Assembly: GCF_000328475.2 (NCBI RefSeq)
Contig: NC_026496.1
Span: 1-64,000 of the forward strand
Length of the DNA: 64,000 nucleotides
Origin: Mycosarcoma maydis
Lineage: Eukaryota > Basidiomycota > Ustilaginomycetes > Ustilaginales
Direction: 5' to 3'
The position numbers were made by a program, and so were the translations under genes. The notes below the pieces were generated by a model. That model worked only from the letters and a program-made list of their open reading frames with translations. It had not been told where the DNA came from and ran no database searches. Of the stretch, positions 3,101-39,900 are shown piece by piece (the stretch's first letter is position 1; every line of letters starts with the position of its first letter).

Positions 3101-3400
3101 ATGATGTCCCGAGCCCGAGTATGGTTGGAGTCTTCATCCACTGCAATGTAGGCTGCACCTGCCTTTTGTGCAGCTAGGATTGCCGCAACGAGACCCGGTC
3201 CGCGTTCCAACACCAAAGCAATCAGTCTTGGGCGGGTCCGATCGTTGCAGAGACGGAGTTGACGTTGGAAATCCAAGGCTAGGCGATCCGACCAGCTGTC
3301 CAAAACAGCGTAACTTACAAAGCTCGAACAGCCATGTTGAACAGCTATCTTCTTTGGAGTCCGTTCAACCTGCCGTTTGAAGGTCTGCAAAACATCCTCT
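200..3400 (-). other. NRPS module 3 (A3-T3-C3), broken
   Basis: A3 covers about 3400-1830, T3 about 1760-1620 (LGADS core, serine kept) and C3 about 1500-200 (HHALYDGA at about 1050-1073). The A3 ATP loop reads VVFTSG directly followed by KPKG, three residues short of the TSG-T-x-G-x-PKG pattern. A tandem duplication of 7 bp (CAGATTG twice, 2619-2632 on the plus strand) shifts the frame inside A3; with one copy the reading continues as VLNLIEPATVPF. In C3, TAG at 1122-1124 precedes and TAA at 969-971 follows the intact HHxxYDG core, and an indel near 365-400 moves the frame once more. Confidence 0.85.
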
Positions 3401-6400: not shown

Positions 6401-6930
6401 CTCTGTATCGCATTCACGGATGGCTCTGTCTGCGTTGAACAGTGAGCTATTGACGTTGTTTTCGGAAATACCGTTTACGTTCTCTGCCAAGATTGAGCTC
6501 ACTCGAGGATGAGTGCTTTCAATCACGATCAACAGAGACGCTTGGACGTGCGACAAGAGCTGAGGCGTTCTGGATGGCGGATGATCGGGCTCGAACGCTA
6601 CGTATCCATAACCCGCTTTGAGCACGGCAAAAATGACGATATAGAGCGCGATGCTTTTAGGCATGAAGATGGCCACTGGCCGCTTACTGGGATTGGAAGA
6701 AGAGATACGGGCAGCCAGCTTCACAGAGAGCTGACCGGACAGGTAATCGAGCCTATCATACGTGATGGCTTCGCCGTCCAAGAACATGATAGCGATCTTC
6801 TTCGGGATCTGCCGGGCTTTTGCCGAAAAGGAGACATGAACCGGCTCGAAGGCTTTGATTGTACTTGTAGCCGTAAGCGGCTTGCACAGCGTCGTGCGCA
6901 GATGCAGAAGCTCTTCTTCGCCCACGCACG
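3400..6930 (-). other. NRPS module 2 (A2-T2-C2), largely intact
   Basis: A2 spans about 6890-5240, T2 about 5140-4990 with the GGDS core near 5030, and C2 about 4800-3400 with HHAVYDGE at about 4371-4394. A2 has FTSGTTSSPKP in place of the usual PKG end of the ATP loop. A frameshift at 6147-6160 lies between FGTL and GGTLCIA: the spacer is 10 nt where the sister modules have 6, a net gain of 4. From about 6140 leftward the frame stays open for over 1100 codons across T2, C2 and most of A3, the longest uninterrupted part of the gene. Confidence 0.85.
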
Positions 6931-6969
6931 GAAGATCTTTTTACTGTCAATCCTCTTAAGTCACTGCTG

Positions 6970-9900
6970 CAAATCGAAGTCAGAACAGCCGAGATCCGTT
7001 GCAAGAAGAACGTCGCCAATCTAGGAGCAACCTCCTCGTCGTGTGAGCAGAGCGCCATGAGCAAGGCTTCGTCGCGCGGGTGCACGATGAGATTGATCGG
7101 GAACTCTACTTCCATTTGAGTGGTCGCGTCAAAGAGGCTGAATTCTTGGGCTGATAAAGCAGAAGGCTCGTCTTGAAAGGTCAACAAGACGGTAGACAAG
7201 GCTGTTGCAGGACGCAGATTTGCTGTACCACAGATCTTGGCGTAGCCGACATGCTCGTGGGCAAGGGCTGCTGCACCGTCAGCGTCAATTTGAGCGAGAA
7301 GCTCCGTGACAGTCTGATCTGGAGCGATGACAGCTCGAACTGGCACAGTAGTGACACAAGGTCCTAATACATCCTGAAGGTCTGCGTGCCCAGCCATGCC
7401 GGAGCGGCCAGAAGAGACGAGACTGTAGATGAAGTCGTTTGCACCCGAAGATGCATGGAGGACGATGGTTAATGCTGTCTTGAAGAGAGTCGCTGTTGTC
7501 ACGCAATGCTCCTGCGCTTTAGAGCGCAGAGCACCTTCGAAAACCATCTGAGTCTCCCTGCAGGAGCTTTGCCGTTCGACTTGCGAGGCTAAGCCAGCCT
7601 TTCCTACCATCTCGGTGGGCCAGGTGAATGCCTGACATTCGAACAGATACCGTTTCCAGTACGCAATCGATTTTTCATTGTCCTGGAGCTTGAGAAGACG
7701 ATGAACGAACAAGGAATAGGGACGGCCTTGCAGCTCCGCTCCGGGGGTGCGACAGAGCTGAATCAGTCGCTCGGAAAGAAGTCGGAGCAGCTCGCCGTCA
7801 TATACAGAGTGATGTATAGTCAGGTGAAAGTCTGTCTTATCGCTAGCAATGTCGAGTTCGGCCGCAACAGGACATTGACCGAGCTTGAACTGCATGTGAA
7901 CGCAGCTGTCATGACTGCGTCTTGCAGTGAGATTGACGAGCTGTTGAACTTGAGCGGACGTGGTTTTCAGAACAAGCTGAAGCAGCTGGTCGCCCTGCAA
8001 CACGAAAGCTGTTCGCAGAATTGGAGTTGCCGAAACAAGCTGCTTCCAAGCTTCCTTGAATCGCTCTACCGAGACCCAGTCTGGGATTGGGACTCCCATA
8101 CGCGCCATATAGCGGCCGCCATGTCGGGTGTTCCTCAGGCTGATGCTGATGAGCGACTCTTGAGTTCGAGTAGCTGGCATCGCCTCTTCGACTTCGTTGA
8201 CTGAAATCTCAACTTCACTGAGGCCATCCTGGGCAGAGTCTGCCCAGCCTTTGACAAGGCTAAAAGGAGCCAGAAGCTCCTCTGCGCCGTCGAGACCCGT
8301 TAGATCGGTGCTCAAAGGCGTAGAGACTCGCATCAACACGCGAGCTTGCGCACGAATGGTTGGATGTGCAAAGATGTCGGCAACTGACAGGCTGTACCCA
8401 GATTGGCGCGCAGCTGCGCTGAGCTTTATCACACTCATCGAGTTGCCTCCTGCTGCGAAGAAGTGCTGATCGAGTGGAATTCGGCAAGCTGGAAGATCGT
8501 AAGGTAGGATAGACTCCCAGAGCGCCGCAACGGCTTCCTCCAACGGGGAAGATTGATATCGAATGGAAGTTTCGTTAGCACTGCGGCGGAAATGCCTCTC
8601 CAAGTTCTTTGCAACGATATCCGAGTAGATGGAAGCAATTCTGCGCTCGTCAAGCTTGTCGTTTGCGGTAGAGGGAATCGCCCCGAGTGGGAAAACGAAA
8701 GAAGGTACAGCGTACCAAGGCAGCTGCAACTCGCATCGTTCAAAGATTGCATTCGCGGCATTTCGATAACCCTTCTGCAAACAGTGTGGAAGATCGTCCT
8801 TGTCCATCGAGTTAATGTCGGGAAAAGGAGAAATAAACAGTGCGAGTGTTTCGACCTTGTCTATCTCGATCTTGATGCATGTTGCGTCCTTGACTTCATC
8901 GGTGGCTGCTAGAGCAACGGCTGTGACGGAGGCAAGCTCAACTCTGCCCCCACGAATCTTGACTTGACGGTCTTTGCGACCTTCGAGAAGCACAACGGAC
9001 TCCATCTACCCATATCTCCGGATAGAAACATTCTTTCGCCCTTCGCAAATGGATTGGCGATGAACTTCGACGCCGAGAACTCGGGTAGATGAAGATAACC
9101 CTGCGCAACTTGAGGACCGGCCAACGCAATCTCTCCAATTTCGTTGACGCCGCAAAGCTCCAAAGATGAGCTGAAATCGTCTGTCACTGCCGTTGAATCT
9201 CGAAGAATATACACCTTGTTGGATCCTAAGGGCTGACCTATGGTCTTGCGGCTTGAAGATGGTTCAATATTCGCAGACACAGCGCTGACGGTGATTTCTG
9301 AAGGACCGTACGTGTTGTAAAGGTCGAAATCCTGAGCAAATTTCTTCTGCACCGAAAAACTCATAGGCTCGCCGCCCGGAAGAATGACGTGAAGGAAGGG
9401 CACTCTTGCTGGGTTGATCAAGTTCAAAACCGTCGAAGTCGACTGCAAGAATGTGGCGGCAAAAGTGTCGCACATTGTTGTCAGGTCTTGAAGCAACTGA
9501 GGCTTTCTTGCCACGCAGATCGTACCTCCGCTTGTGAGAGTTCCGAACAGATCCCATACGCTCATATCGATGGCAGGAGCGGAAAAGGCAAGGGTGCGTA
9601 AAGAGTGGTAGGCATTCATCATCGACCTGCATCCCCGGATAGAATGGAACAAATTACCGTGGTCGACACGAATCCCTTTAGGGGCGCCACTTGTTCCACT
9701 CGTAAAGAGGATGTCTGCTAGATCGGAGGCCTCTGTCGAATGAAACACGCCGGCACCAATGGTGAAGATAGACTCGTTTGCTACGGGAAGTTGGAGCAAC
9801 TGATCGACCAGGATAATTCTAGCTCCGCTTGCATTGAGGAGACCTTGCAGCGAATCACTTTGCTTGGCGGTTGTGAGGATGACACGAGGGCTGATCTGAT

Positions 9901-10250
9901 CCAAGATCAGTTGATTCCTTGCCGCTGGACTTTCAAGATCAAGTGGCACGTAAGCACTTCCTAGCATCAGTACTGCTCAGATGGACACGTACAAAGGAAT
10001 GCCTTGGTCAAGTGCCAGCGGAATCGGTGATGCCCTCTCCGTGGAAGAGAGCTCGGCAGCACAAAGGGAGGCCAGGTGTTGCGCCTGTCTATAGAGCATG
10101 CCATATGGCATGCAACGTCCTTCCGCGGTCTGCAATGCAATCTTCTTGGGATGAAGCTGTGCGCGTCGAGCTATCTGCATTTGAACGCTCTCGAAACCAC
10201 CCACTGAGGCGGGAGTGTCCAACGAGAAGGTTTTCGAGACTTTCTGGCAA
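6970..10250 (-). other. NRPS module 1 (A1-T1-C1), broken
   Basis: A1 runs from about 10250 to 8640. It has the ATP-loop FTSGTSGAPKG (A3 core), NTYGPSE (A5), SGD (A7), the QVKIRG segment (A8) and the NDKLDERR segment holding the A10 lysine. T1 has GGNS with the phosphopantetheine serine (about 8440). C1 has HHSVYDGE at about 7790-7815. Lesions: TGA at 9977-9979 reads SI-stop-AVLM where A domains normally have a residue such as Trp; a loss of about 4 nt just after GDMGRW near 8998-9010 shifts the frame; an extra A in a run of five (6938-6942) shifts it again between C1 and A2 (removing one A restores VKDLPCVGEEE). Confidence 0.85.
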
Positions 10251-17764: not shown

Positions 17765-19572
17765 TCACATGCGCGAGACTCCGCCGAAACCAGGGTTGCC
17801 CTGAATCTTTTCTTGGGCAAAGATCTCTAGGCAGAAGCCGACGACATCGCGTGTAGAGCGAGGATCGATTATGCCGTCATCCAACAGGCGGCTAGAGGAA
17901 TAGTAAGAGTCAGACTCAGTAGAAACCTTCTCAAACATTGCCTCGCGGCGCTTTTGCTGTCGAACCTCGTCGATGGGCTTGGCGCTACGGCTGAGAATCT
18001 CGCGCTCCACCATGTCCACTACGCCTGCCAGCGCGTCGGGTCCCATGACCGAGGTACGTCCCTGAGGCCAGGTGAACAGGAAGCGTGGGTCGTACGCGCG
18101 CCCGCACATGGCGCAATTGCCTGCACCATAGCTAGAGCCTACGATGATGGAAATGTGGGGAACGCGTGAGTTGGCAACCGCGTTAATCAGCAGAGATCCG
18201 TACTTGATACTTCCCGCAGCTTCAAACTCGCGCCCTACCATGAAGCCCGAGATGTTGTGCAAAAATAACAGAGGGACATTGTTGTTGTTGGCCAAACGGA
18301 TGAACTGAGTCGTCTTCTGTGCGTCGGAGGGATTCAACACCCCGTTATTTCCGATGATACCCACCGGATGACCCGCAACATAGGCAAAGCCAGTCACAGT
18401 GTTGGCGCCATACAGAGGCTTGAAGGCGTTGAAGCGACTGCCATCGGTGATGCGTGCGATCAGCTGCTCGATACGCCAGGGCTTCTTGATGTTGGCCTGA
18501 GCCACGTCTAGAAGCGAGTCCATCGAGTATAGCGGCTCCAGACTCTGCCACTGTGGTGTGAGAAGCGCCTCGGGACGCGAAATGCGTGAAGCCCAGTTGA
18601 GAGATGCAACCCAGTAGCGCGCTTCGGTGATAGCCTCAACCTCATTGTTGACCAAGCAATCGGCCACGCCCGACACAGTGGCGTGTTTCTCTGCACCACC
18701 CAGCTCCTCAGCGGTACTTTCCTCTCCTGTCGCCATCTTGACCAAAGGCGGTCCGCCTAGGAAGAGTTGCGCCTGATCACGGATCATGATGGTCATGTCC
18801 GACATACCTGGCGTATAGGCACCCGCAGCGGGGCACTGGCCAAATACGACCGAGCATGTCGGGATTCCATCTTGGGAACGCGTCGCTAGATCGTAGAACT
18901 GGCGTGCGCCGTGATGGAACTCGAATTGCTGTTGCAAGTTCGCGCCTGCGCTATGTACTAGGAACACAATCGGCAGTCGATTCTCATGTGCGATCTGGCC
19001 CAGGCGCTGAATCTTTGCAATCTGTGCCCTGTTAGCTGAGGCGCCTTGTAGCGTGGGGATATGGGCGATGCACATGGTTAGAGTGTTGCTGAGCGATGAG
19101 AAAATCCAAAGTGGGACGTAAATCAAGTCAAGATTAATCCACACGACTTATGTGTTAGCTTGCTAGTCACTGATCGCAGTCATGAGTCGCAAAGTCAACA
19201 TTATGGAGCTACTTACCTGACGAGGCCAATGCCACCGACTACGCTACCCGAGGGCGTACAGTCCTTTTGTTCGTAGCCAGCAAAGGTACAGAGCTGTAGA
19301 AAGGGGGAATCTTGATCCAGCAGCAGCGCAATACGGTCGCGCGCCAATAGCATGCCACGGCTGAGGTGGAGCAGCTGGGTCTTTCCACTGCCCTGATTTA
19401 GCACGGATTGCGTACGCTCGTTTAGCTCACGAATCAATGCTTCGTTCGCCGCACGATTCGCCTCCACTTCAGGGTCTGTCACCAGCGGGGGCAACTCCAG
19501 TACTGGAAGCCTCAACGCAGGGTGGGCTGGCTTGAGCGGTACTTCCGGCGTCTGAAGCGCATTGGTTGACAT
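17765..19572 (-). CDS. Methylcrotonyl-CoA-carboxylase-like carboxyltransferase (beta) subunit
   Basis: Two exons, 19572-19217 and 19088-17765 (intron donor GTAAGT, acceptor CTCAG), giving 559 residues, about the size of eukaryotic MCC beta. Carboxyltransferase of a biotin-dependent acyl-CoA carboxylase: it moves carboxyl from carboxybiotin to the acyl-CoA. Family landmarks: SAGANL, GQCPAAGAYTPGMSD, LFLGGPPLVKMATGE, GIIGNNGVL, ISGFMVGREFEAAGSIK, GSSYGAGNCAMCGRAYDPRF and a C-terminal LLDDGIIDPRSTR. These are MCC-like, not PCC- or ACC-like, but diverged. The ATG at 19572 has A at -3; the open frame reaches 19725 only by a TTG, so I reject that longer start. The N-terminus (MSTNALQTPEVPL) is acidic and not presequence-like, and there is no SKL-type tail. 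The partner subunit is encoded at 26671-29397. Confidence 0.9.
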
Positions 19573-21761
19573 GATGACACGTTTGATAGTGAGGCCAAGA
19601 TTAGAGGGAGGAGATGATGCGTGCAGGTAGGGTGGTGGTCGCAACAGTGACTGTCGAGGAGAAAAGACGGTTCGAGCTGTCCAAAATGGGCTTGGAGGAG
19701 AGAGGCAGAACTTATAGGGAACCAAGCAAGACGATGAGCTAGAGGCAGCTCTAGCCTTGGTGTCACAACGCTACCTGGCTTCCTGGAATAAGAAATCACG
19801 AAAGCCTAGGCTCAATAGCTCTGAGCTTCTCGTTCTGTGTCACAAGTGTAGCTATCAGTGATACATCGTTGCTTTGTCAACCTTCCTGCCTGCTTCTCGT
19901 ACAGTTCTGTTTTGAACATATCTTCGGTCTCCTCTCCTTTCACGAGTTAAAATGAGGTGTAAGCGTCAACGTTTCAACAGCCTGGCAGACAGACGTTCGT
20001 GAATGGCTGACGCTGGTTCGCACCATTAGCAGAAGCACTGCTTGGTGCCACTGACGGTGCAGTAAGAGCAGCAGCCGCATTTAGCTGGCTCGCTTGGGCT
20101 TTCAACAGAAGCTAATTGATATGCCTTGCCCTGAATCTGAGTCACCTCCGAAGGCAGCCCCTGCTCCAGAGGAGGAGGAAGCAGCAGTCGAGCACCCAAA
20201 GAAGATGACATTGGTATCACAATTTCAATCACGCAGGCACTAGCATGATAGCAGTTGCGTGCACGCCCTAGCGCATTAGCGGTATCTAGCCGGGGTCCAC
20301 GCTGACCCTAGTCAAGGAACGCTTGCGTGTAAAGAGTCGACCTCTTCCTGGCCATTGTTTTCTCCGCGTCACGCGTGCCAGGTTGCGCTGTGCGGTGACG
20401 ACTAGTTAGAGGGTCGGATCGCCATGAGGAAGCAGCAGTACCGCTTGCTTATGGCCGCTCGCAATGTGCGTATGAAAGAGTAGCGCCATCGTTTCAGCTG
20501 ATCAGAGTGCGAATGACTGCGGCAGCACGTGTCCAAGACGCTCTTAATAGTAGCCTCTTGTCCACTCGCTTCTTGCAACAAGTCCAGATAGGTTTTGCTT
20601 ATGTTATCAATTCTTCACGGAACAGGGCGGAGCAAAGCTATTGGGAGCAGATGCGACATCTAGTTCCATACTGCGTAGCGTGACTACCATGTATGTGTGA
20701 CTCTGTGACTGTGCTGCACGCTGCGGAAGCAACCTGAGCAAAGCGTGAAGGTTCGGAGAGTGCTACGACGTAAAATTGTGAAAACATGCGAAATAAAACT
20801 TGAGCCGACCCTGCGTGACACGGTTCCCACCCTACACCAATTTTCGCACTCACACAGTTGTGAGTGTTATTGCGCATATCCGCCGAACAAGCAACAAAAA
20901 GCATTCACAATTATTTCTTTCCGTTATGCCGATGATTCTCGTCTGGACGTCACAAATCATCTCGATCACTGAAACAGCAAAGCGATCTTATACCGTTCTA
21001 TTGTGCTGTACTGTAATGTAGCTACTCTCTGTCGAGCAGACAAGACAATGAAATCATAATCAAGTTCAAACTCACGCTGGGATGTCAATCATGCATAATT
21101 CTAAAATTTTCTCCGCGGTCGTTGTTCACACTCGACAAACTTCGTCTACTCTTTTTTTATTTCCTTTTTTTTATAATAAATACTTGCGTCAACTCGGTTG
21201 CCCAACGCGAATTTTCCGAACCGAGCAGGTTTAGTGCTCGCTAAGCCTTAAGCCTTGCGTACTAACCCTGATTGCGCAGAAGTAAGCCAAGCGGAAGCAC
21301 CCACCAATAACACACTTGCCTGCTCGCGGCCGCGATAGCATGCCCAGACGGTGTGATACGTCGAGTAGCGACCCTTGCTCAGGCATTTGTGGCCTTGCAA
21401 AAGGCAATCACATCGCTATGAGCGATAACAACCAAAGCTAGCTGAAACATGAACAGAAGGAAATCCGTCTCTTCACTCTACTTTGCAACCACCCCTCACA
21501 GCATCAACCGATGCATCGGGCGATTGTTTACAACCGGACATACATAGCATCTCAATTCGGCCTTGTGGTCCGAATACCAGACTTGCCTGCTCCTGGACCA
21601 CGCCTGGCTTCCGTCATGAAGAGCACAGTTAAGCTGGACGTATTGCTCCAACTACCACAACCTCTATAGAACTGGACTGCCAGCAAGCTCGACGTCTGTT
21701 CTTCCCGACCTTTGCTTGCTCTCCTTCGCACAGAAAATACCGACGACGAAAGGCTTGTAAG
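19573..21761. other. Divergent intergenic region between carboxyltransferase and MFS genes
   Basis: 2.2 kb serving as upstream region for two genes that point away from each other. It includes one small Cys-rich open frame at 20026-20211 (listed separately) and an A/T-rich stretch at 21145-21185. No other gene is supported. Shared control of the two flanking genes from this region is possible but not shown. Confidence 0.5.
20026..20211 (-). CDS. Possible small Cys-rich protein (metallothionein-like tail), doubtful
   Basis: From the ATG at 20211 the frame gives 61 residues. The first 43 contain no Cys; the last 18 read KCGCCSYCTVSGTKQCFC, six Cys in CxCC, C and CxC spacing, which could bind metal as small fungal metallothioneins do. 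There is no signal peptide. The frame is short and could equally be chance or a terminal exon of a spliced gene; no upstream exon was found. Neighbours are the carboxyltransferase and MFS genes. Confidence 0.25.
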   Translation of the reverse strand: MSSSLGARLLLPPPLEQGLPSEVTQIQGKAYQLASVESPSEPAKCGCCSYCTVSGTKQCFC

Positions 21762-23507
21762 ATGCAAAGTGGTACAGTGGCAAGCCAGCCCTATACTGTG
21801 GACCTGGCTGCGGGAAATGGTCAACTGGAGGCGAGTGGCGCCAAGGGGGCATCTTCATACGCTTCATCACAGACAGCCACTACACCAGACGTGCACAGCT
21901 ACGAACCTTCCACTTCTGGAGTCGCAGAGATCAACACTCCCTTTGACCCGCAAAGTGATTGCGGTCTAGACAGAGATCGCCAAGCTTCTGATCTTGACGA
22001 CGAACACAAGGCTGCCGCGGCGCCGGATGACCTCGAGGTTGCTGGTCATCAGGTCGCATCCAAAGTGGCTGACAGCAGCCTCGATGAGAAGTTGCCACCG
22101 CAGCTGGTGGGCTGGGAGGGCCCTGACGATCCTGACCATCCGCACAAGTGGTCTGTGGTCCTTCGTGTATACCTCACCTTTCTAGCATGCGTGGTGGTGC
22201 TGGCATCTACGTTCACCTCTTCGATCTCCTCTGGTATCGCTGAGAGTCTGATGAAGCACTACAGCTTCGGCAAAGAGGTCGCTGCACTCACCATCTCGGT
22301 CTTCGTCGCGGGTTATATCCTGGGACCCTGGTTGTGGGGTCCACTCTCGGAACGAATCGGTCGCCGCAAGGTATTTGCGGCTTCGCTGCTCATCTATACT
22401 GGCTGGAACGTGGGCTGCGCTCTGGCACCCAACACAGGTGCGCTACTGACGTTCCGCTTCCTCGCCGGCACCGCTGCCGCTGCGCCGCTGAGCAACTCAG
22501 GTGGTCTAATCGCCGACCTGTGGCCGACACGCGTTCGTGGTATCGCCACCGGTCTATACGCCTGTGCGCCCTTCGCCGGGCCCGCACTAAGCCCTATCGT
22601 CAGCGGCTTTATTCAGAGCTCGGGCGCCAATTTCCGATGGGCATTTTGGGTTTGCGCTATATTTTCCGGTGTCTGCTGGTTGCTAGTAGTTCTCACGCTC
22701 CCAGAGACATACGCGCCTGTGCTCCTCAAGCGCAAAGCGGACCAACTTCGTCGACAGACTGGCAGCGCAAGCTACTGCGCGCCGATAGAGCAGGCCAAAC
22801 TGACACCGTCGACGTTTCTGCGAGATGTTCTGATCAAGCCGCTGATCATGTCAATTCAGGAGACAATGCTGCTCGCCTCGATCTTGTTTATGGCGTTTCT
22901 GTACGGTGTTGTCTACCTGCTCTTCGAAGCCTTGCCCATCGTGTTTGGCGAGGGCTACGGCTTCAGCGCAGGCGTTGTGGGCCTCATGTTTATTCCTTTC
23001 GCTCTAGGGGCGTGTGTTGGCGTGCTATTCTACATTGTTGTCTTTTTCCCTCGCTATGCCCACAAGGTCGACAATGCGCCGGGCAACCAGGTAGCACCAG
23101 AGGAACGTCTTCCTATGGCTATGCTTGGAGCACCTGTTCTGACCATCGGCTTCTTTTGGTTCGCGTGGACCAGCGACCCGAATATCAGCTTCTGGGCGCC
23201 CATGCTCTCCACTGCCCTGCTGGGCTTTGGCATCTTTTTTGTCTTCCAGGGGCTGTTCAACTTTATGATTGACGCCTACACCGTCAATGCAGCCTCGGCG
23301 TTGGCTGCCGGCGTGATTGTGCGCAGCTGCTTTGGCGCTGCATTTCCGCTTATCGCGAGACAATTGTATGCTCGGCTGGGCACCAAATGGGGGTCCAGCT
23401 TGCTCGGCTTTCTCGCGTTGGCTATGACGCCGATCCCATTCCTGCTGTATCACTACGGGCCTCGTCTCAGGGCCAGATCCCGAAGTGCCAAGCATACTGC
23501 CGCCTAG
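21762..23507 (+). CDS. MFS transporter, DHA1 drug/metabolite efflux type
   Basis: A single open frame of 581 residues from the ATG at 21762. The first 120 residues are hydrophilic and acidic, followed by HKWS and 12 predicted membrane segments. Signature features of fungal DHA1 proton antiporters: GPLSERIGRRKVF between TM2 and TM3, FRFLAGTAAAAPLSNSGG in TM4, DLWPTRVRG after TM4, and PLSPIVSGF-type motif C (here GPALSPIVSGF) in TM5. Motif C is typical of exporters. A hydrophilic central loop separates the two halves. It sits between the two carboxylase subunit genes and is convergent with the CoA-transferase gene, so export of the pathway product or its precursor is a reasonable inference. The substrate is unknown. 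Confidence 0.88.
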   Translation: MQSGTVASQPYTVDLAAGNGQLEASGAKGASSYASSQTATTPDVHSYEPSTSGVAEINTPFDPQSDCGLDRDRQASDLDDEHKAAAAPDDLEVAGHQVASKVADSSLDEKLPPQLVGWEGPDDPDHPHKWSVVLRVYLTFLACVVVLASTFTSSISSGIAESLMKHYSFGKEVAALTISVFVAGYILGPWLWGPLSERIGRRKVFAASLLIYTGWNVGCALAPNTGALLTFRFLAGTAAAAPLSNSGGLIADLWPTRVRGIATGLYACAPFAGPALSPIVSGFIQSSGANFRWAFWVCAIFSGVCWLLVVLTLPETYAPVLLKRKADQLRRQTGSASYCAPIEQAKLTPSTFLRDVLIKPLIMSIQETMLLASILFMAFLYGVVYLLFEALPIVFGEGYGFSAGVVGLMFIPFALGACVGVLFYIVVFFPRYAHKVDNAPGNQVAPEERLPMAMLGAPVLTIGFFWFAWTSDPNISFWAPMLSTALLGFGIFFVFQGLFNFMIDAYTVNAASALAAGVIVRSCFGAAFPLIARQLYARLGTKWGSSLLGFLALAMTPIPFLLYHYGPRLRARSRSAKHTAA

Positions 23508-23970
23508 CTGCTCACTATAGACTTCTTACATACTTCCAATTTGCTCACATAGAAGCCATGCCTCTGCACATACCATCCGTATTGGCCATCAAATCTAAAA
23601 AATAAAATAAAAATTGGCGCGAAAGAATTAGGCCAACTTACTGTACATGCAGCCGATATTGGCCACTGAGTCACGAGTGTGTCACTGATTCATAATCAGG
23701 AAAGGTGAACATTCACGACTTTCCACGACTTGTGCGTTGCTTAATTGAGTTTCAGCGAGCTTGAGCATCGAGAAGTGGTTGCTGGAAGGATTATGAGTCG
23801 CGAGTGACAGATGTTTGCCTCGGCCGTTCCACAATATCATCTTAGCGCCTCTCATATTTGAGAGTTTGCGTGGATGAATCAGTAGGATCACTAGTGGAGA
23901 TGGGCTAACTATGTACATGGTGAGGGGCAGGATGAATATGTAGGTCGCAAGCCGATCTGATTACTACGTG
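23508..23970. other. Convergent 3' intergenic region
   Basis: 463 bp between the stop codons of the MFS and CoA-transferase genes, which face each other. It is A-rich at 23595-23625 (aaataaaataaaa), which may serve 3' end formation for the plus-strand gene. No open frame here is worth calling. Confidence 0.5.
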
Positions 23971-25449
23971 CTACGAGGTACGGAACTGGTTCCAAGAAAA
24001 TGGTACAGCACCGGCGGGTTGAGCACCGCGTTTGAAGTGGGGCCTGATATGCTCGAAGCCGATACGGACACCAAGATAGGTGGTATTGCCGTTTGGACCC
24101 GAGATGGAGCTGAGTTTATCGGAAGCAGCGTTGTGGTCGATAGGTGAGAGATGCTCCACCTCTTTAGTGTCAAACGATCCGAGATCCTGCACCCACATGA
24201 CGACGCTGGCGAGGTTGAGACTGACTACGTAGCTGCCACCTTCCTTGGCGCGGCGCAAAAGGGCGCTCAGTGCACCGGCAAAGCCCAAGATGCCTGCCAG
24301 ATAATCGTTTAGCAGGTAAGTGGGGGGTAAGCGAGGAGAGGCAAAGCCGCCTTCTTCAGCAGAGAACCCGGTAGCGGTACAAGCCAGCTGATCAAATCCG
24401 CCGCGGGTGGCCCAGGGCCCGATGCGCCCCCAGCCGGTGATGTCAACGAAAATGATGCCGGGTTTGAGTTTTGCCAGATCCTTGGCCGAGTAGCCCTTGA
24501 GCTCAAGGGAACGATAGTTGCATACGTAAATATCGGCGTCGGAGATGACGTCTGCAAATGCTTTGCGCCCCTCTTCTTCGTTGAGATCGCAGAAGGCATT
24601 GAGCTTGCCCAGACCAGTCTCGTTAAGCATAGCGGCCGAGTCGGGATAGTCTGGCGAGGACATGTGGAGCACATCGGCACCAAACTCGGCAGCCAGACGG
24701 CTGACGATGGGCGCAGCAATCACATGACCGTTGTCTAGCAAGCGGATGTGCTCGAGAGGCAGCGAGGCGTTGTCCTTTTCTGGATCGGGCTGCGACAAGG
24801 GGGTGAGTGGAATTGGCTCACTCTCGTCGATTTTAGTGACTGAAATGAGTTCCTGCTGCAGAAGCGCCTTGCCTTGCGGGTGCTCGCGCCACTCTTGACG
24901 TGTGCGCAGCGCAATAGCACAGCCATGCGACTGGTTGATGGCATCTTCGAGCTCAAATGCATTCCATTGAGCAATGTTCTTGGCATAATCCTTCTTTTCA
25001 GGAGGGCACTGGAGCACCTGACACGCGGCGTCGCGGAGGCGCGGATAAGTGAGCAGCAGGAACACATGGCGGCCATCCTTTGTGGGATAAAAGTCGCTGT
25101 TATGGAAGAGCTTAGGATCCTCGAACAGGCGGAGAAGGTTCACGCCGTTGAGCTTAGTATAGAAGGCGGCAGTGAGCTGCATGATGGCCTCGTCAACCGA
25201 GACACTGACCTTGTCTAGCGCCGAGCCGCGCGAATGGGCCACTTGGGATACAGCAATGCCCGCCAAGGCTAGAGCGGCCGCGCAGGCGTCGCCAATGCGG
25301 TGAGTGGAAGGCACCACAGGATCATGCCCATTGATTGTAGCAGTATGAGCCGAGGTGTCGAGACCGATTTGCTTACCGAGCTCTTGGAGGATGCTCTCCG
25401 TGCTCGGAAAAGCGTCCGAGGCGTGCGCTGACCCGGTGGATGTGGTCAT
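23971..25449 (-). CDS. Family III CoA-transferase (CaiB/BaiF-like)
   Basis: An unspliced frame of 492 residues from the ATG at 25449 (MTTSTGSAH). The frame reaches 25542 only through a TTG, so that start is not used here. Family III enzymes transfer CoA between carboxylic acids. Seen: an EHIRLLDNGHVIAAP segment, GADVLHMSSPDYPD (the usual GADVIKVE-type step), YVCNYRSLELKGY, GIIFVDITGWGRIGPWATRGGFDQLA, and YLLNDYLAG in the region where the catalytic Asp of the family lies. The first 200 residues hold what resembles the family's late part (DEAIMQLTAAFYTKLNG, KDGRHVFLLL, WRE), an order common in long fungal CAIB/BAIF proteins. No targeting signal is seen. It lies head-to-tail with the carboxylase alpha gene and probably supplies or recycles its acyl-CoA substrate. 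Confidence 0.85.
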   Translation of the reverse strand: MTTSTGSAHASDAFPSTESILQELGKQIGLDTSAHTATINGHDPVVPSTHRIGDACAAALALAGIAVSQVAHSRGSALDKVSVSVDEAIMQLTAAFYTKLNGVNLLRLFEDPKLFHNSDFYPTKDGRHVFLLLTYPRLRDAACQVLQCPPEKKDYAKNIAQWNAFELEDAINQSHGCAIALRTRQEWREHPQGKALLQQELISVTKIDESEPIPLTPLSQPDPEKDNASLPLEHIRLLDNGHVIAAPIVSRLAAEFGADVLHMSSPDYPDSAAMLNETGLGKLNAFCDLNEEEGRKAFADVISDADIYVCNYRSLELKGYSAKDLAKLKPGIIFVDITGWGRIGPWATRGGFDQLACTATGFSAEEGGFASPRLPPTYLLNDYLAGILGFAGALSALLRRAKEGGSYVVSLNLASVVMWVQDLGSFDTKEVEHLSPIDHNAASDKLSSISGPNGNTTYLGVRIGFEHIRPHFKRGAQPAGAVPFSWNQFRTS

Positions 25450-26670
25450 GATGGTGAATCTGGGGGCTCTGTAGAAACTTGCGACTGGGATGCGTGGTGA
25501 TGGTGGTGAGCAAGATCGTGTAATGACCAGTTGGGCACTCAATGGCAGTTGAAAGCAATGTTGGCTGGAGCGCAGTTACGTAGTGATGTACACTGGACGA
25601 GGTGGAATTGGCAAAGGTGCGATCCTATTTATCACTCAAGTCATTGACTGACCTACGCCTCTTTCATGCTTGAAGCGAGGGATATGAAAGGGTCAGACAA
25701 AGGGACTGACGCAGAGAAACGTTCGCGACTTGGCCCCTCGCGGACTTGAACTCAGAAAGCTAGTTTGAAGGCTACAAGGGGCTCTCTGTAAACCATCCAG
25801 ATATGAGAGAGGAAAAGGTCAACTGACGACGGTTCGGAGGCTTCGGCCGATGGATTCCGAGTATAGGCAAGAGGGCTGTTCTTGCTTTATAGCTGTCTTG
25901 ACAGTCAAAGCACTGGGTGACGCGCCGAAGAGGGAGCCGCGAAGGGAACAGCTACGGCAGGCGACCTAGCGAGCTAGCGAGCGAGAAAATCAACACTGAC
26001 GCAAAGCTGAACGGCAAGGCAAGCACTCTGTGACATTTTCCAGTCCAGTTGTGTATCGTGAATGCTGCAGGAAGCCAGCTGAGGATGTCGGCTAATTGTG
26101 AACAATAGAAGCGCACACCCATACTGTCCAGGATCTGCATTTTAGTGTGAGCGCAACGAGCCTCTTCCGACCTGCACTTACGACTCCGGTTCTTTTAACG
26201 AGCTGAGAAGTGGATCGTAGTACGATACTGACATAATTTATTGTAAGGTTAACCACGGACAAGGCACGAGAGCATTCTTGATTATTCACGATTTGTACAA
26301 GAAAGAAAATAGCAGGTACAACATGCCGTGTGCAGGATCGTGGATGTACGATGAGACTAAGTCTCTCTTGTCTCGGCGCAGATACCGCTCGTCGCTCTTG
26401 CTTCGTGATTTGTTATCCGTGATCGACTATTTTCATTCGCGATTGTTATAATAATAATCGTGAATTCGCGAATGCGTGGATTTGGCTTGGTGCGGCTTCT
26501 GCTCTTGCTAGTTACTGTCACTAAGCAAGAGCGACGAGCGGTATCTGCGCCGAGACAAGAGAGAATCGTCTTGTTCTGTTCACTCGTGAATTGTGCCGAA
26601 CACTGCGCAGCGGACGACTCAGGTTACCGACGGGAAAAGCCACGCCGTGTACTGCCGCATCATGAAGTCC
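25450..26670. other. Intergenic region with long inverted repeat
   Basis: 1.2 kb between the alpha-subunit stop and the CoA-transferase start, both genes on the minus strand. The CoA-transferase promoter should lie in the left part. The right part holds a perfect 42-bp inverted repeat (listed separately) about 100 bp past the alpha-subunit stop. No gene is supported. Confidence 0.5.
26362..26564. repeat. Perfect 42-bp inverted repeat with 119-bp loop
   Basis: Arms at 26362-26403 and 26523-26564 are exact reverse complements over 42 bases (left arm begins TCTCTCTTGTCTCGG, right arm begins AAGCAAGAGCGACG). The 119-bp spacer is A/T-rich (ataataataatcgtgaattcg). Just inside the arms the match continues imperfectly. 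Transcribed from either side it would form a long hairpin. It may be a small non-autonomous mobile element or a hairpin near the alpha-subunit 3' end. No target-site duplication was established. Confidence 0.9.
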
Positions 26671-29397
26671 TTACTGTTGCTGTTGTTCCAATCCTACCTG
26701 GCAGAGAAGCTTGCCCTCGGGTACCGTGTCGCCATTCTGGACGTGCAGGTGCAGCTTCCCTGCAACCTGAGCTCGAATCGTCGTTTCGATTTTCATCGAC
26801 TCACAGATCAGCAAAGCTCTGCGTGGCATAGGCAGTGCAAGGAAATAGGAGCGCAATCCCAATTAGAAAGTCAGTCTTTGATCCAATGCCAAATTACCCA
26901 AGTCAATCAATGCAGAAGCATGGTGCTCATACTCACTGTCCAGCTTCAACGTCGGCCTTATCTTCGACCAGGATTTTGAGGATTTTGGCTGGCATCGGGG
27001 TTACGTAGGCTGACTTGCTTGCGGTCGAGTCATCCGACGACTGGTTGGCAAGAGCGTAGGTGCGCATGCCGTGTCGTACTACTTTGATCGGTCCACAGAG
27101 CCTGGACGACCAGACCCAGGCGGTTTGTGCGCTGGTCTCGTGGTCCTGGAAGGAGTGGTCCGTCGCCAGAACATGGGTTGAGGTGATGCCATCAATCTCG
27201 AGCGAGAGCGTCGCAGTTGCCCAGCGCGCCCGTCCCGTGGCCAGATGAGATTTCGTTGTGGCGGGCAGAGACGATAGCTGCACTTGCGACGAAGTCAGCA
27301 GCGTGGAGCGCACGTGATGCATCTCACCCGGCTGAACGCCCAACTGCCACTCACCGTTGGTGCGTCCTTCCAGCCCGTTGCGCGTGGGTAGCGAGCTGTA
27401 GAACTTGGTCGATGCGCGACTCGCCTTAAGCTGCGCCGCCAGCGCCTTCGGCTGCGCCTTAGCGCTGTACTTTTCCTTGATGCGCTTCTCGGCCGCCTGT
27501 ACTGCGTCAGTGGACTGGTTATGCCAGATCTTTAGCTCGTACTCGCCATTCGCGCCGTCGTACTCCACCATCACGTCCCACTGCTTGCCGCCATCGGGCA
27601 GAGAGACAACAAAGTTCTCCGTCTTGGACACGCTTCGATCGCACCCGTTGACCAGCCCAAAGCTCGATGGCAGACCGCTGCGCGATGGATACAGTTTGCT
27701 ACGCAGCTCCTTGAATAGCTGGAACGCCGGAACAATTGCTGCTAAAGGCAGGGATGTCTCTTTTGGCCCCGTCGAAAGCGCCGAGGGAGCAAGCTGTTCG
27801 GGAAGACCCAGCAGCCAATCGAGGTTGTTGGGAATGAGCGAAGTGGTGTAAGTACCGTCGACAAAGCTCGGATGACGCAGACAGGAGCTCATAAAAGTCG
27901 TGTTGGTTGGCAGTCCGATCAGTACTGTCGTCTGCAACACCTGCAGCATCTTCTCTATCGCCTCGCGTCGTGTAGCCGCGTGCACAATTAGCTTGCCCAG
28001 CATTGCATCAAAGAAGATCGAGACTGACGTGCCGACGCGAATGCTCGTGTCGAAGCGCACTCCGGACTGGCCAAGGCAAAGCACCTCGAGCATCCTTACC
28101 ACGCCCGTGCGTGGCGTAAAGTCCTGTTGATAATGGTGATAAGGCAGCACCGACAGGCGAGGGGTAAGGTGGTCAGTTATTTCGTCCGACCAGTGAATCG
28201 GCCAGTCGCCCTATCTTGCATTGTACTAGTCTATCAGTCGCGCAGTTGAATACTCACAGCACCAGGCTCCTCTGCGCAAACACGACACTCGATTGAGTGT
28301 CCAAAAGGCACTAGCTTGGCCACGGGCGCCAACTTGGAAAGATCGCCATCAGCACCGACGTATACACCGAGGCTGACTAGATCCAGTCCGCTACACATCT
28401 CCGTCACGGGATGTTCGACCTGCAAGCGCGTGTTGACCTCAAGGAAAAAGAATTCTTTTGTCTTGGGGTCGAAAATGTACTCGACCGTGCCTGCGCCTTG
28501 ATAAGACAGCAGCGATCCGATGGTGACGGCCGACTTATGGATGCGCTTGCGAAGCTCCGGATCTGCCTCGCAGTCGACCGCAGGCGACTCTTCGATGATC
28601 TTCTGGTGACGACGCTGGACGGAACAGTCACGCTCGCCGAGCGCGTAGACATTGCCGTGATTGTCACCAAAGATCTGCACCTCGATGTGTTTGCCGCCCT
28701 CGATGTAGCGTTCGAACAGCAGTTCGGACGAGCCAAAGTTACGCTGGGCTTCGGAGCGTGCTCTTGCGATCTCAGAAGCCAGCTGATTTGGCTCGCGCAC
28801 GATACGCATGCCTCTCCCGCCGCCACCAGACGATGCTTTGATCATGAGCGGATATCCGATCTTGCCTGCCATCTCGAGATTAATCTCGGCGGTACCGTGG
28901 TAGCCAGGAACAAGATGCGCATCATCGCCCAGCTTTTCCTGGAGCAGCTGCTTCGAACGGCTCTTTTCACCAATCGAGCGCATCACATCTCCGCGCGGGC
29001 CCAGAAAAGTGATCCGTCCTGTGGCGGCCACAGCGTCAGCAAAGTCGGCGTTCTCGGAGAGGTAGCCATAACCGGGGTGAATGGCATCACATTGGTGTGA
29101 CAGTGCCACTTCGATCAGCTTCTTGATGTTGAGGTATGGGTTATCGTCGGTGGTCATGGGTCCCACATTGATCGCAGTTGTAGCGTGGGCTACAAACTCG
29201 GCCGAGGCGTCGACCTCAGTGTATACCACAACCGTCTCGACGTTCATCTGCTGGCAGGTGCGCACGATTCGCAGCGCAATCTCACCGCGATTGGCGACCA
29301 TGACGCGACGGATGGGCTTGGGTCCATTGGGTGCGATGAACAGCGGGGTGCCCTGCACCGTGGGCGGGCTGGGAGGTAGCAGCTTGGACATAGTCAT
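26671..29397 (-). CDS. Methylcrotonyl-CoA-carboxylase-like biotin carboxylase/carrier (alpha) subunit
   Basis: Three exons: 29397-28258, 28123-26937 and 26818-26671 (GT-AG introns of 134 and 118 nt), 824 residues. The N-terminal biotin carboxylase domain has VMVANRGEIALRIVRTC, HPGYGYLSENADFA, the ATP-grasp glycine loop KASSGGGGRGMRIV, ERDCSVQRRHQKIIEE and EVNTRLQVEHPVTE. A middle region of about 300 residues follows, and the last exon brings the biotinyl site ESMKIE plus the NGDTVPEGKLL turn of the carrier domain. It carboxylates its own biotin with ATP and bicarbonate for the beta subunit at 17765-19572. ATGs at 29397 and 29391 are the first candidates; the frame before them has only a GTG. 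The N-terminus (MTMSKLLPPSPP) has no arginine-rich amphipathic presequence, which is unusual for an MCC subunit. Confidence 0.9.
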
Positions 29398-33962: not shown

Positions 33963-34787
33963 TCAAGGAAGGGTGTACCCGCCATCGATGATAGTGTCAC
34001 TGCCAGTCTGGTACGAAGAAGCATCGCTGGCCAAGTAGAGGAAGAGACCTTTGATCTCTTTGACGTGGCCTTGTCTTCCGAGTGCAGACATACGGTATGC
34101 CTCGTTGACGACACGAGGACTGGCTCCTAGCTTAGTATCGAAAAAACCGGGGCTGACAATGTTGACTCGTGCGAATTCTCTCCATTCCCTCGCAAGCGAC
34201 TTGCCCATGTGGGTGACGGCGGCCTTGGTAGAGTTGTAGACGGGTTGATCGACGGGTACGTTGACAATGTGCGCCGACATGCTCGAAGTGATGATGAGGT
34301 TTCCCTTGCCCTGACGCTTGAAGACCTCGCCTACGTACTTGGCGCAGTAAAAGACGCCGTCGACGTTGACTTCCATCTGACGCTTGTATTCTTCCACGGT
34401 CTGTTCGAGGATGGGTTTGGAAATGGCCATACCAGCGTTAGCGACGAAGACATCGATGCGACCGAAATCGGCAATGACCTTGTCAATGGTTGCGCGGACC
34501 TTGTCAACCAGTGAGACTTCGCACTGGTACGCCTTGGCCCGAATCGCGTGAGTCTTTGCGAGCACTTGCGCTTTCTCGATGGCACTGTCGTTCGAATTAT
34601 ACCAGAGTGCCACGTCTGCGCCAGCTTCAGCAACGGCCTCGATGGCAGCATATCCAAGACCTTCGCTCGCACCTGTGACGACAACCACTTTGCCCTTCAT
34701 GCTAAGCTGCTCAAGCACATTCGTTGGCGTGTCAGGCACGGGTCTTGGCTCTCGAAAAGCCGAGCAGTCTTGGATTGTCATAGACAT
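33963..34787 (-). CDS. Short-chain dehydrogenase/reductase, sorbose/xylulose-reductase-like
   Basis: A single frame of 274 residues from the ATG at 34787. Classical SDR: cofactor loop TGASEGLG (38-45), NAG (117-119), catalytic Ser at 168/169, Tyr184 and Lys188 in YNSTK, and a PGF segment after the sixth strand. The N-terminal extension before the first strand (about 30 residues, with NVLEQLSMKGK) and the C-terminal SYQTGSDTIIDGGYTLP resemble fungal NADPH-dependent sorbose/L-xylulose/arabinitol reductases, which reduce ketoses or related carbonyls. There is no targeting signal. The exact substrate is unknown, and its neighbours give no pathway hint. Confidence 0.87.
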   Translation of the reverse strand: MSMTIQDCSAFREPRPVPDTPTNVLEQLSMKGKVVVVTGASEGLGYAAIEAVAEAGADVALWYNSNDSAIEKAQVLAKTHAIRAKAYQCEVSLVDKVRATIDKVIADFGRIDVFVANAGMAISKPILEQTVEEYKRQMEVNVDGVFYCAKYVGEVFKRQGKGNLIITSSMSAHIVNVPVDQPVYNSTKAAVTHMGKSLAREWREFARVNIVSPGFFDTKLGASPRVVNEAYRMSALGRQGHVKEIKGLFLYLASDASSYQTGSDTIIDGGYTLP

Positions 34788-36020
34788 CTTAGCCAGAACA
34801 GTTCAGGTCAGAGGCCTAAGTGGATCGAGGATGTTCCAAGCGGGAGAGGCTGAGGAGTATCGCGGGAAGGATGTTTGTGTGGGGAGCAAGGTAAAGAAGC
34901 GAGAGAAGCTGGAGCTTGTCCACTGACTACGCCACAGACAGAGAGGCCTCGCCGTTGGTTGTTACACCTGCCTTGAGCGTTGCTGCCGTACGAGCTGACT
35001 ATCGTTTCCTGTTTGTGTTGTGAACAAGGGTTTTCCACTCACGACTGTTTTCTTTGAAGGCAACGCTGGTCGGTGAAATTGATGCCCGATCCGCCGAAAA
35101 GAAGGGTTAAGGCCAACGTCCTGCTTAAACGCACAGGTAATCGCGATTCGAATGTTGGCGTCGGAGAGCCGCAAGCATGGCAGACAATCAAGAGTTCGTT
35201 CTGCTGTGACCTCAACCAAAATTCGTGATTCAGCCAAGACCCTCAACGTGCCAGCAGCATTCGTGATTCATTCGAGATTCACGCCTATTACCTCGACAGG
35301 CTTCCCTAGCGGCGGTTCACACAGATTATGGTATTTTTGTGCTGTTTTAGAGTCCCCAATTTTTCGTATCTATAGCATTCCGATTCACGATTCGTGATTC
35401 ACGATTGTTGTAACATTCATGAGCTACGAGATCGTGATATTCAAAGACCGGATGGAAACTGCTCCTGCCAAAGTGGATTCTAATTCGTCCACAACCAACC
35501 TATACGCGCTCACAGAGCGAGCTTTTCTGTAACAACTGGTACACAATGGAGCGGCAAAACAGGGAGCAGAGGTGGAGCTGGAGCTGGACGCCATGCTCCA
35601 CTTGTTGCTGTTGGTTGATTCGAGGTGGAGGCACGAGCGTGGAAGTGAGGTCGCCGCGGATCTGTTTGCTGAATTCGTGAATCACGAAACTCCTTCCATG
35701 TTCCATGTTCGGACCACCTAAAGCAACGCGTCTGTCTACTTTGCATTGCCGTTTATGCTGTGCAGGCTTTTCAAGACAACATGTCGAATATCCGAAAGGC
35801 TCACCGTCGCGGGTTCCTCAACCTGCACATCCGTGGAAGAGAGCAAGATGGCGGATGTGATTCACGAATCTTTGCCGTGGATCAGGCACTTCTACACGTA
35901 ATATGATAATATGTGATGTCATGCTCGCAACAAATTCAGCGCACGAGACGTGTGTAGAAATGTGCACCAAAGCAAACGCCGTGATACGTCGTACGTGGGT
36001 ACAGTTATCGGCATTCATTC

Positions 36021-36928: not shown

Positions 36929-39900
36929 ATGGCATCCACCTCTCATCAGCCACCCATCGTGTCTCCCCCGGATATGCAAGACGTTGAGTCTACCAACAAC
37001 ATGGGTGCAGCTCCCCTGGCTTGCGTCTCCAGCAGAGGCACTTGGGGAGAGCCGGAACGTGGTGAACATGTCAACGTCGACCAAGCTATGCAGGATTTCC
37101 AGCTTGTACGACAGTCCTCGCGCGGATCTGTATCCAGCGCTAACGCAGCCGCATCTTCCTCCGGACTTCGAGGAGCATCCGCTATTGGTCGTGCTCTAAG
37201 CGGCGGAGACCATAAAAAGCAGCCAAAGATCAACGAAAACGAACTGGATCTCGAGAACGTCCCTTCCGAGGAAACCTACGAAAACGACTTTGATCTCGGC
37301 AAGTGGTTGCTCACACGCAGTGCACAAGCAAAAGACGAAGGCATTCATGATGGCAAGCCTGTAGGCATGCTCTGGAAAGACATCTCCATCATCGCACCTG
37401 GATCGGGTGGAGGAGGCATCTTTGTCAAGACTCTTCCCGTCGCCATCGCAAACACTGCCTGGAGAGATCCCATCGGAATACTCGCCACCTTGATCCCGCC
37501 CCTCTCCAAGCTCTCTATCGCGCGCAACATGACCACCACCACCCTTCTTTACAGCTCCAACGGTATCCTCAAGCCAGGCGAGATGCTTCTCGTTCTTGGT
37601 CGTCCTGGTTCTGGCTGTTCGACCATGCTTCGCGCCATCACGTCCAAGAACCACACCAACGTCTCTGCCTTGGGCAAAATCCTCTATGGTGGTCTGTCAC
37701 CTGATCAGATCAATCGCAAGTATCGAGGCGAGGTTGTCTTTGTCGATGAAGAGGATACCCACTTTCCTACGCTCACCGTCGGGCAGACACTCCAGTTCGC
37801 CCTCAAGAACAAGGTCCCCCACCGATCGCGCCGACTTAAAGGAGAGTCCCGTCAACAATTTATCGAGACTTGCATCGAAGTCATGCTCAAGATGTTTGGT
37901 ATGACGCATGTTCGCGACACCATCGTCGGTGATCAAGCCGTTCGCGGTGTCTCTGGAGGTGAACGTAAGAGGACGACAATCTCCGAGGCTCTCGCCACCC
38001 GTGCTAGTGTTATCGCTTGGGACAATTCGACCCGCGGTCTCGATGCATCCACCGCTCTCGACTATGCTCGTTCCCTTCGTATCATTACCGATCTCGCTCA
38101 GCGCTCCACCATCGCCACCCTCTATCAGGTATCAGAGAGCATCTTTGATCTTTTTGACCGCGTCGCCATCATCGATCAGGGTCGTTGCATCTACTATGGC
38201 CCACGCAAGTTCGTTCGCTCCTACTTCTACGAGCTCGGCTACGATACGCCCGATCGTCAGACTACTGCCGACTTCGTCACCGCCCTCACCGACGTCAACC
38301 AAGTCGTATTCCGCCCGGGAATGCAGAATCAAGCGCCCAAAACGGCCCAAGACCGCGAACGAGTATGGAGGTCCAGTAATCTTTACCACCAACTGGAAGC
38401 TGAGATGGAATCCTACGAGCACCATCTCGCCCAGGCCGAGCAGGCAGACCAGCTCAAGCAGACCGTGCGTTCCGAAAAGCGCAAGGGAGTCAACAAAGGC
38501 TCCAGCTATACCGTCAGCTTCTGGGACCAAATTGTTAGCTGCATTTGGCGTCAACTCCTCATCAAGTGGGGCGCGAGAGGGGATCTTTACGTCAAGCTCT
38601 TCACCATCATCTCGGTCTCGTTCATGATTTCGTCGCTCTTCTACAAACAGCCTTTCGACTCCGAGGGAGTTTTTACTCGCGGTGGTATTTTGCTCTTTGC
38701 TTGCTTGTTCAACGGCTGGCTTCAGCTTTCGGAGTCCTTCGAGGCTGTAGCCGGTCGTCCGATGCTCAGCCGACATCATCAATTTGCCTTCTATCGTCCA
38801 TCAGCGGTGGTTTTGGCACGCGCTCTGGTGGATATTCCTTTCCTTCTGGTGCAGTGTTTACTCTCTTCCATCATCATCTACTTCCTGGCGAACTTGAGGA
38901 GCGACGCCGGTGCCTTTTGGATTTTTTACGTCTACTGTTTCCTCTCATCGTACTCCTTGACGGCTCTCTACCGAATGTGCGCCGCTTTCTCACCAGGCTT
39001 CAATGAGGCTATTCGCTTCTCGGTGCTCGCCCTGAATCTTCTCATCATCTGGGTGGGCTACGTACTTCGCAGACCACAAATGAACTGGATGATCTGGCTC
39101 AGCTATGCTCAGCCTATCAGCTACGCGTTCGAAGGCTTCCTTGCCAACGAACTCAACTACCCAATCAACTGCACATCTCAACAAATTGTTCCTTTTGGTG
39201 AGGTCAGAGATGTAGCCTACCAGACCTGCTCGCTCACCGGTGGAGAACCTGGCTCAGTCATTGTCCAAAGCGCCGACTACCTCTCCGTCACATTCGGCTA
39301 CTCGAGATCTCACATTGGCCGCAACGTCGGTGTCATGATCGCGTTCGCTGTGCTTTACCTGATCCCGACGGTGATTGGAGCCGAGATCATAAACTTTGGA
39401 GGCGCCGGTGGCGGTGTCACTGTCTTTGCACGTACCAAGGCTGCCAAAGCCAAGCTTGCTGCATCAAAACCCGCTGGTAACGATGACATCGAAGAAAAAG
39501 CTGTGGTGGCTGCCGATATTCCCAGCTCGTCTGACAGCAACGGCAGCATCACGCGTGCCAATTCGCCTGCAGACCCCGGCAAAAAGGGCAACGGATCGGA
39601 CAAGCAAGCATTGACGAAAACAGCACAAGAACTCGACAAGAAGGCCATCTTCACCTGGAAGAACGTCTCGCTTCAATTGCCGACTGGACGAAAGTTGCTA
39701 GACGATATCACCGGCTATGTCAAGCCGGGTACGATTACAGCGCTCATGGGAGCTTCCGGTGCCGGAAAGACCACGCTACTCACGGCGCTCTCGCAGCGAG
39801 GCGTGAGTGGCAACTTGTCCGGGGATATTCTCGTCGATGGCAAGCCACTAGGTCCCGGCTTCCAGCGGGACACCGGCTTCGTCCTCCAAGGCGATGTCCA

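Follow-up and report, generated by a model that had tools for sequence, protein, structure and literature searches.

What does a two-subunit acyl-CoA carboxylase do in a group with a CoA-transferase and a transporter, on which acid does it act and in which compartment? The question is raised by positions 17765-29397 of the window studied here, which comprises the first 64 kb (64,000 bp) of contig C19 (NC_026496.1) of the smut fungus Ustilago maydis (Mycosarcoma maydis). The answer we favour, with a probability of roughly 0.48, is that the enzyme is a peroxisomal carboxylase which takes an isoprenoid-type 3-methyl-2-enoyl-CoA and to which smuts have added functions for activation and transport. 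The reading is built on sequence evidence, namely the genes themselves, the clade, signature and C-terminal tripeptide of the beta subunit, a second methylcrotonyl-CoA carboxylase (MCC) pair in the host genome and the linkage of bacterial relatives to the gene of AtuA (acyclic terpene utilisation, named as in Pfam).

The four genes and the host's own leucine enzymes

From left to right, the group consists of the genes for the acyl-CoA carboxylase beta (carboxyltransferase) subunit on the reverse strand (17765..19572, exons 19572-19217 and 19088-17765, 559 aa, C-terminus GGVSRM), a major facilitator superfamily (MFS) transporter of a generic multidrug type on the forward strand (21762..23507, 581 aa), an intronless class III (CaiB/BaiF) CoA-transferase on the reverse strand (23971..25449, single exon, 492 aa) and the alpha subunit (biotin carboxylase and biotin carrier), also on the reverse strand (26671..29397, exons 29397-28258, 28123-26937 and 26818-26671, 824 aa), which has no peroxisomal targeting signal type 1 (PTS1). 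The splice sites of alpha and beta are models placed by eye against known carboxylases, with GT-AG introns, and these models agree with the close homologs P0001 (559 aa), a smut beta 94% identical to that of the window, and P0121 (826 aa). The open frames match the Pfam models Carboxyl_trans (beta, 342.6 bits), MFS_1 (142.6 bits) and CoA_transf_3 (144.9 bits), those of alpha match Biotin_carb_N, CPSase_L_D2 and Biotin_carb_C, and the biotinyl motif ESMKIE lies in the third exon of alpha, with E-x-M-K-x-x found in 118 of 121 rows (the window alpha and its 120 listed homologs). Two Aspergillus proteins, P0191 from A. saccharolyticus (1155 aa) and P0199 from A. aculeatus (1148 aa), are predicted to combine such a carboxyltransferase with such a biotin carboxylase in one chain, either as real fusions or because the gene model ran two neighbours together. 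All four genes listed in the preliminary description of the locus were found in place, and outside their spans 17765-29397 contains no open reading frame of at least 200 aa. Between the alpha and CoA-transferase genes lies a 47-nt inverted repeat (26362-26408 and 26518-26564, 98% complementary, 109-nt spacer), which is perhaps a small mobile element.

Two open frames of the host share their final 12 residues with um03158 and um01966 as given for U. maydis in PMC9133605, in support of the species name. In the host genome (27 contigs, 19,664,356 bases) the Carboxyl_trans profile matches four places, namely the window, contig C7, a long frame on C13 resembling acetyl-CoA carboxylase (ACC) and a 1241-aa frame on C21, and the Biotin_carb_N profile matches five. 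The C21 frame (83873-87595) is distinct from the ACC-like one and has biotin carboxylase and carboxyltransferase domains in one chain. A second MCC-type pair, which the preliminary description had left to be sought, is present and unlinked, with beta on C7 (43% identical to the window beta) and alpha on C14 (40% identical to the window alpha), so the window pair is not the only one. Among their first 35 residues, C7 beta and C14 alpha each have 6 basic and 0 acidic ones, as against 2 basic and 4 acidic in the window beta and 4 basic and 0 acidic in the window alpha, a crude test that leaves the latter ambiguous. The C7 and C14 proteins have the longer leaders, since their alignment with the window proteins begins later (residue 75 in C14 alpha vs 25 in the window alpha, residue 54 in C7 beta vs 35 in the window beta). 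C14 also holds a long short-period repeat array (274594-276068) with a masked stretch, open in several frames, one of which repeats QFTIHNS.

Isovaleryl-CoA dehydrogenase and 3-hydroxy-3-methylglutaryl-CoA (HMG-CoA) lyase, already noted as missing from the group, are encoded instead on C17 and C3, respectively, as identified by their closest solved structures, and the enoyl-CoA hydratase family has 18 matches elsewhere in the host genome. The HMG-CoA lyase (C3:1539647-1540507) has a mitochondrial-type N-terminus together with a PTS1-type AKL end, suggesting that it is possibly dual-targeted. Given an unlinked MCC pair with mitochondrial-type N-termini, an isovaleryl-CoA dehydrogenase and an HMG-CoA lyase, the four genes do not form a plain leucine cluster, as had been suspected, and leucine breakdown as their sole role was rejected because all these enzymes are encoded outside the window.

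The beta subunit and its bacterial relatives

The best 120 of 7,999 scored beta homologs were listed and put into an alignment of 124 rows, together with the beta subunits of the window and of C7 and with those parts that are printed for Pseudomonas aeruginosa MCC and geranyl-CoA carboxylase (GCC) beta. According to Jurado et al. (PMC4673880), Phe191 and an insertion mark MCC, Gly162 marks GCC, and the size of the substrate is governed by this residue, as mutations show. The column that corresponds to Phe191 of MCC, assigned here by alignment and not by the numbering of that paper, contains Gly in 111 rows, Ala in four, Ser in three, Thr in three, Phe in two and a gap in one fragmentary row. 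Phe belongs to the C7 copy and to P. aeruginosa MCC, both of which also have a three-residue insertion; the window beta has Gly in place of Phe191 and lacks the insertion, which is a GCC-like signature. Of the two features the missing insertion is the more robust, because the gap shifts by one position when fewer rows are aligned. Gly was rejected as a decisive signature, being common to so many rows, and its wide spread led to the addition of a tree and a gene-context test.

In a careful tree of 40 chosen rows (support figures paired), the three MCC rows, namely the C7 copy, P. aeruginosa MCC and a Streptomyces leucine-type copy, form one group (100/99) which does not include the window beta, 23 PTS1 rows form another (100/99) and the AtuA-linked rows a separate one. 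A structural model of P0001 shows a root-mean-square deviation of 1.8-2.5 to MCC and GCC and of about 23-24 to propionyl-CoA carboxylase (PCC)-type subunits over a similar length, so that in this model the fold and the placing of the halves are those of the MCC/GCC lineage and not of PCC.

These data bear directly on the view that the pair arose by duplication as another MCC, used for leucine or 3-methylcrotonate and perhaps relocated to peroxisomes or the cytosol. The top matches of the window beta among solved structures are human MCC beta (442.7 bits) and P. aeruginosa MCC beta (429.9 bits), followed by GCC (427.5 bits), and homologs from Pseudozyma and others carry the source name methylcrotonoyl-CoA carboxylase. 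Nevertheless, we consider this view improbable in the light of the complete-looking mitochondrial set elsewhere in the host, the position of beta outside the MCC group and its lack of both Phe191 and the insertion, the more so as an F191G mutant of MCC was essentially inactive on 3-methylcrotonyl-CoA (PMC4673880, section 8). The window pair shares its subunit and domain make-up and its fold with MCC, differing in the clade and signature of beta. With P. aeruginosa GCC (AtuC/AtuF of Pseudomonas) the window beta shares Gly and the missing insertion; it does not sit with it in the 40-row tree, where GCC has a long branch, and belongs to a eukaryotic clade with a PTS1-type end, in a host where AtuA was not found. 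The designation of the pair as MCC-like is too narrow, given the clade of beta, the missing insertion and the conserved PTS1-type end, which the preliminary description had overlooked.

The end in question is SRM. Scored as a C-terminal [SAC][KRH][LMI] among the 120 listed hits, with source names assigned by hand, a PTS1-type end was found in 64 of the 67 eukaryote-named homologs (46 of the 64 with a final L or M), the misses being one HRM end, one extended model and one partial record, as well as in none of the six bacterium-named hits and 13 of the 47 remaining ones. In a quick tree of 120 rows (the 124 minus four short or truncated ones) the 77 PTS1 rows occupy one side of one branch, with a support of 98 in the Shimodaira-Hasegawa-like approximate likelihood-ratio test (SH-aLRT). 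Because of this end, the complex would most likely work in peroxisomes. To our knowledge, no biotin-dependent carboxylase has been placed there, eukaryotic ones being described as cytosolic, mitochondrial or plastid.

Searches of an open-access collection, outside which most subscription papers lie, listed no report of the smut cluster or of a peroxisomal acyl-CoA carboxylase. ARI, the end of 18 eukaryote-named hits, is an import signal in U. maydis, where it is used by malate synthase, according to PMC9133605, in the covered portion of which neither SRM nor the word 'carboxylase' was found. Piggy-back import exists according to PMC5314374, but with a partner bearing a type 2 signal (PTS2); in that work it was not supported by the PTS1 pathway. 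Methylcrotonyl-CoA carboxylase appears as an endogenously biotinylated standard in the Histoplasma peroxisomal proteome (PMC13343957), and the portion of PMC5922974 covered contains nothing on a peroxisomal acyl-CoA carboxylase.

The same C-termini could be explained by a cytosolic carboxylase whose SRM or ARI tail is a leftover of a bacterial FRM tail and no targeting signal at all, given that bacterial members, among others, have an FRM or FRH end, which differs by a single change, and alpha has no signal. This seems rather unlikely to us: position -3 is F or Y in bacteria vs S, A or C in eukaryotes, position -1 is limited to M, L and I in 64 of the 67 named eukaryotes, and the last residues of the structural model are poorly ordered (predicted local distance difference test, pLDDT, <50 at 554-559).

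The gene-context test was made on 14 actinobacterial genomes, picked non-randomly from 68 loci with relatives of the CoA-transferase and searched for AtuA and P0001. AtuA was found in all 14, and in 13 the best P0001 match lies 462-3,707 bases from its gene; in the fourteenth the best match is 140 kb away and the second-best, less than 5 bits lower, is near AtuA. None of the 12 listed second-tier beta copies has AtuA within 20 kb, and the one inspected, in Streptomyces griseofuscus, has the MCC signature and a leucine-type setting, flanked by HMGL-like and acyl-CoA dehydrogenase genes. All three AtuA-linked copies that were read lack the insertion, two having Gly and one Ala. In one Rhodococcus genome AtuA is followed by beta, alpha, enoyl-CoA hydratase and TetR, in this order, whereas the smut locus has the CoA-transferase and the MFS transporter instead.

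CoA-transferase, transporter and neighbouring genes

By its profile (PF02515, 144.9 bits vs a cut-off of 23.3) and by the catalytic Asp of its LLNDY motif, which all 17 aligned rows have, the 492-aa protein is assigned to the class III CoA-transferases, although it reaches the cut-off of no curated NCBIfam model. It groups inside bacterial proteins, which makes its gain by horizontal transfer from bacteria likely. Residues 224-416 correspond to the start of the profile, and its later parts give weak matches, in one register, to the N-terminal half of several relatives; compared with the class III enzymes FRC, SUGCT and CaiB, the smut protein adds about 215 N-terminal residues resembling the catalytic-helix and small-domain part. 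A structural match spans residues 226-490. The order swap is backed by 48 columns only in profile-profile comparison (E 1.3e-4, probability 54%; best of 20 column-shuffled controls E 0.11), so the protein is called rearranged, and a proven circular permutation is not claimed. Close bacterial CoA-transferases in Streptomyces, in high-GC loci where genes were called with a filter for GC content at third codon positions (GC3), adjoin a canonical class III transferase and acyl-CoA dehydrogenases, neighbours which name no substrate and were dropped as a guide to that of the smut enzyme.

The MFS transporter, the best host paralog of which is 56% identical and located on C3, best matches multidrug-efflux-type models. 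This would fit the production and export of a dicarboxylic acid, along the lines of the preliminary description, with the CoA-transferase loading an acid, the carboxylase adding a carboxyl group, the transferase recovering CoA and the transporter secreting the free acid. The gene content agrees with such a scheme, class III CoA-transferases may be able to hand CoA over from the product to the substrate, and smuts do secrete organic acids. Still, we regard it as unlikely: the transporter is generic, matching aromatic-acid uptake models too, the PTS1 on beta would place the carboxylase away from the plasma membrane, and the bacterial relatives lie in catabolic-looking operons.

Linkage in other fungi was read indirectly, from locus tags and equal contig sizes in match tables. 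In Pseudozyma hubeiensis, beta (PHSY_001925) and alpha (PHSY_001928) appear to be on one contig (440,687) with two locus tags between them, so the gene order looks conserved in this one relative, as far as the tags show. Beta and alpha also appear to share a contig in Tilletiaria anomala (457,298), Stagonosporopsis (49,841), Sarocladium strictum (3,517,452) and Fusarium euwallaceae (371,564; tags 000805 and 000806), and alpha and the CoA-transferase appear to do so on one metagenome contig (12,437).

On the left, at the contig start, open frames of a nonribosomal peptide synthetase (NRPS) type, with condensation, AMP-binding and PP-binding domains, extend over several overlapping frames (1122-9967, reverse strand). 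Beside the cluster, on the other side, are a short-chain dehydrogenase/reductase (SDR) gene (33963-34802), a pleiotropic drug resistance (PDR)-type ABC transporter gene (36929-41593) and an NmrA-like gene (41857-42840), all of this within 45 kb. Ferrichrome A carries a methylglutaconyl group, and the four genes might belong, together with the NRPS at 1-10 kb, to a larger cluster for secondary metabolism in which the carboxylase makes an unusual acyl unit. That arrangement is improbable as well, considering the distance of about 8 kb between the NRPS and the four-gene group and the alpha-beta linkage in fungi of other phyla, which means that the pair itself is not tied to this NRPS.

Proposed pathway and its meaning

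For the peroxisomal carboxylase that we favour, we infer localisation, substrate, order of steps and direction of transport as follows. Alpha and beta would form a biotin-dependent acyl-CoA carboxylase of the MCC/GCC lineage acting on the gamma carbon of a 3-methyl-2-enoyl-CoA, which, because of the beta signature, is probably bulkier than 3-methylcrotonyl-CoA. Alpha, having no signal of its own, would be carried into peroxisomes with beta. The likely task is to open up an isoprenoid-type acid with a 3-methyl branch to degradation (at a guess, a terpenoid or a compound derived from phytol) by carboxylation, hydration, cleavage with an HMG-CoA-lyase-type enzyme and subsequent beta-oxidation; the host HMG-CoA lyase with the AKL end could supply the cleavage in peroxisomes. 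The bacterially derived class III CoA-transferase and the MFS transporter would have joined the locus in smuts, probably to activate and move the acid.

Several observations weigh against this reading. The U. maydis genome gave no match to the AtuA model that matched in 14/14 bacterial genomes, although an intron-split gene could be missed. The pairing of Gly with Phe191 depends on gap placement, Gly is unspecific, occurring in 111/124 aligned rows and in bacteria too, and is replaced by Ala in one AtuA-linked copy. In the 40-row tree the PTS1 group does not arise from within the AtuA-linked one, and P. aeruginosa GCC, with its long branch, joins MCC; among solved structures MCC beta scores as close as GCC. 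The tail could also have a structural role, since SRM differs from bacterial FRM in a single residue. Finally, a PTS1 on alpha or on the CoA-transferase was rejected, the signal being present in 0/120 listed homologs of each.

It is conceivable, and is proposed here quite tentatively, that fungi, green algae and amoebae share a biotin-dependent peroxisomal carboxylase through which isoprenoid acids with a 3-methyl branch, such as terpenoids and phytol-type chains, are degraded along a eukaryotic equivalent of the acyclic terpene pathway of bacteria, and that smuts added a horizontally acquired, domain-rearranged CoA-transferase and a transporter to it. If this is true, the PTS1-bearing clade, with members among chytrids, moulds, smuts, green algae and amoebae, would equip peroxisomes for carboxylation and let them bypass the obstacle that methyl branches pose to beta-oxidation, and the database name 'methylcrotonoyl-CoA carboxylase' would cover two different enzymes in fungi.

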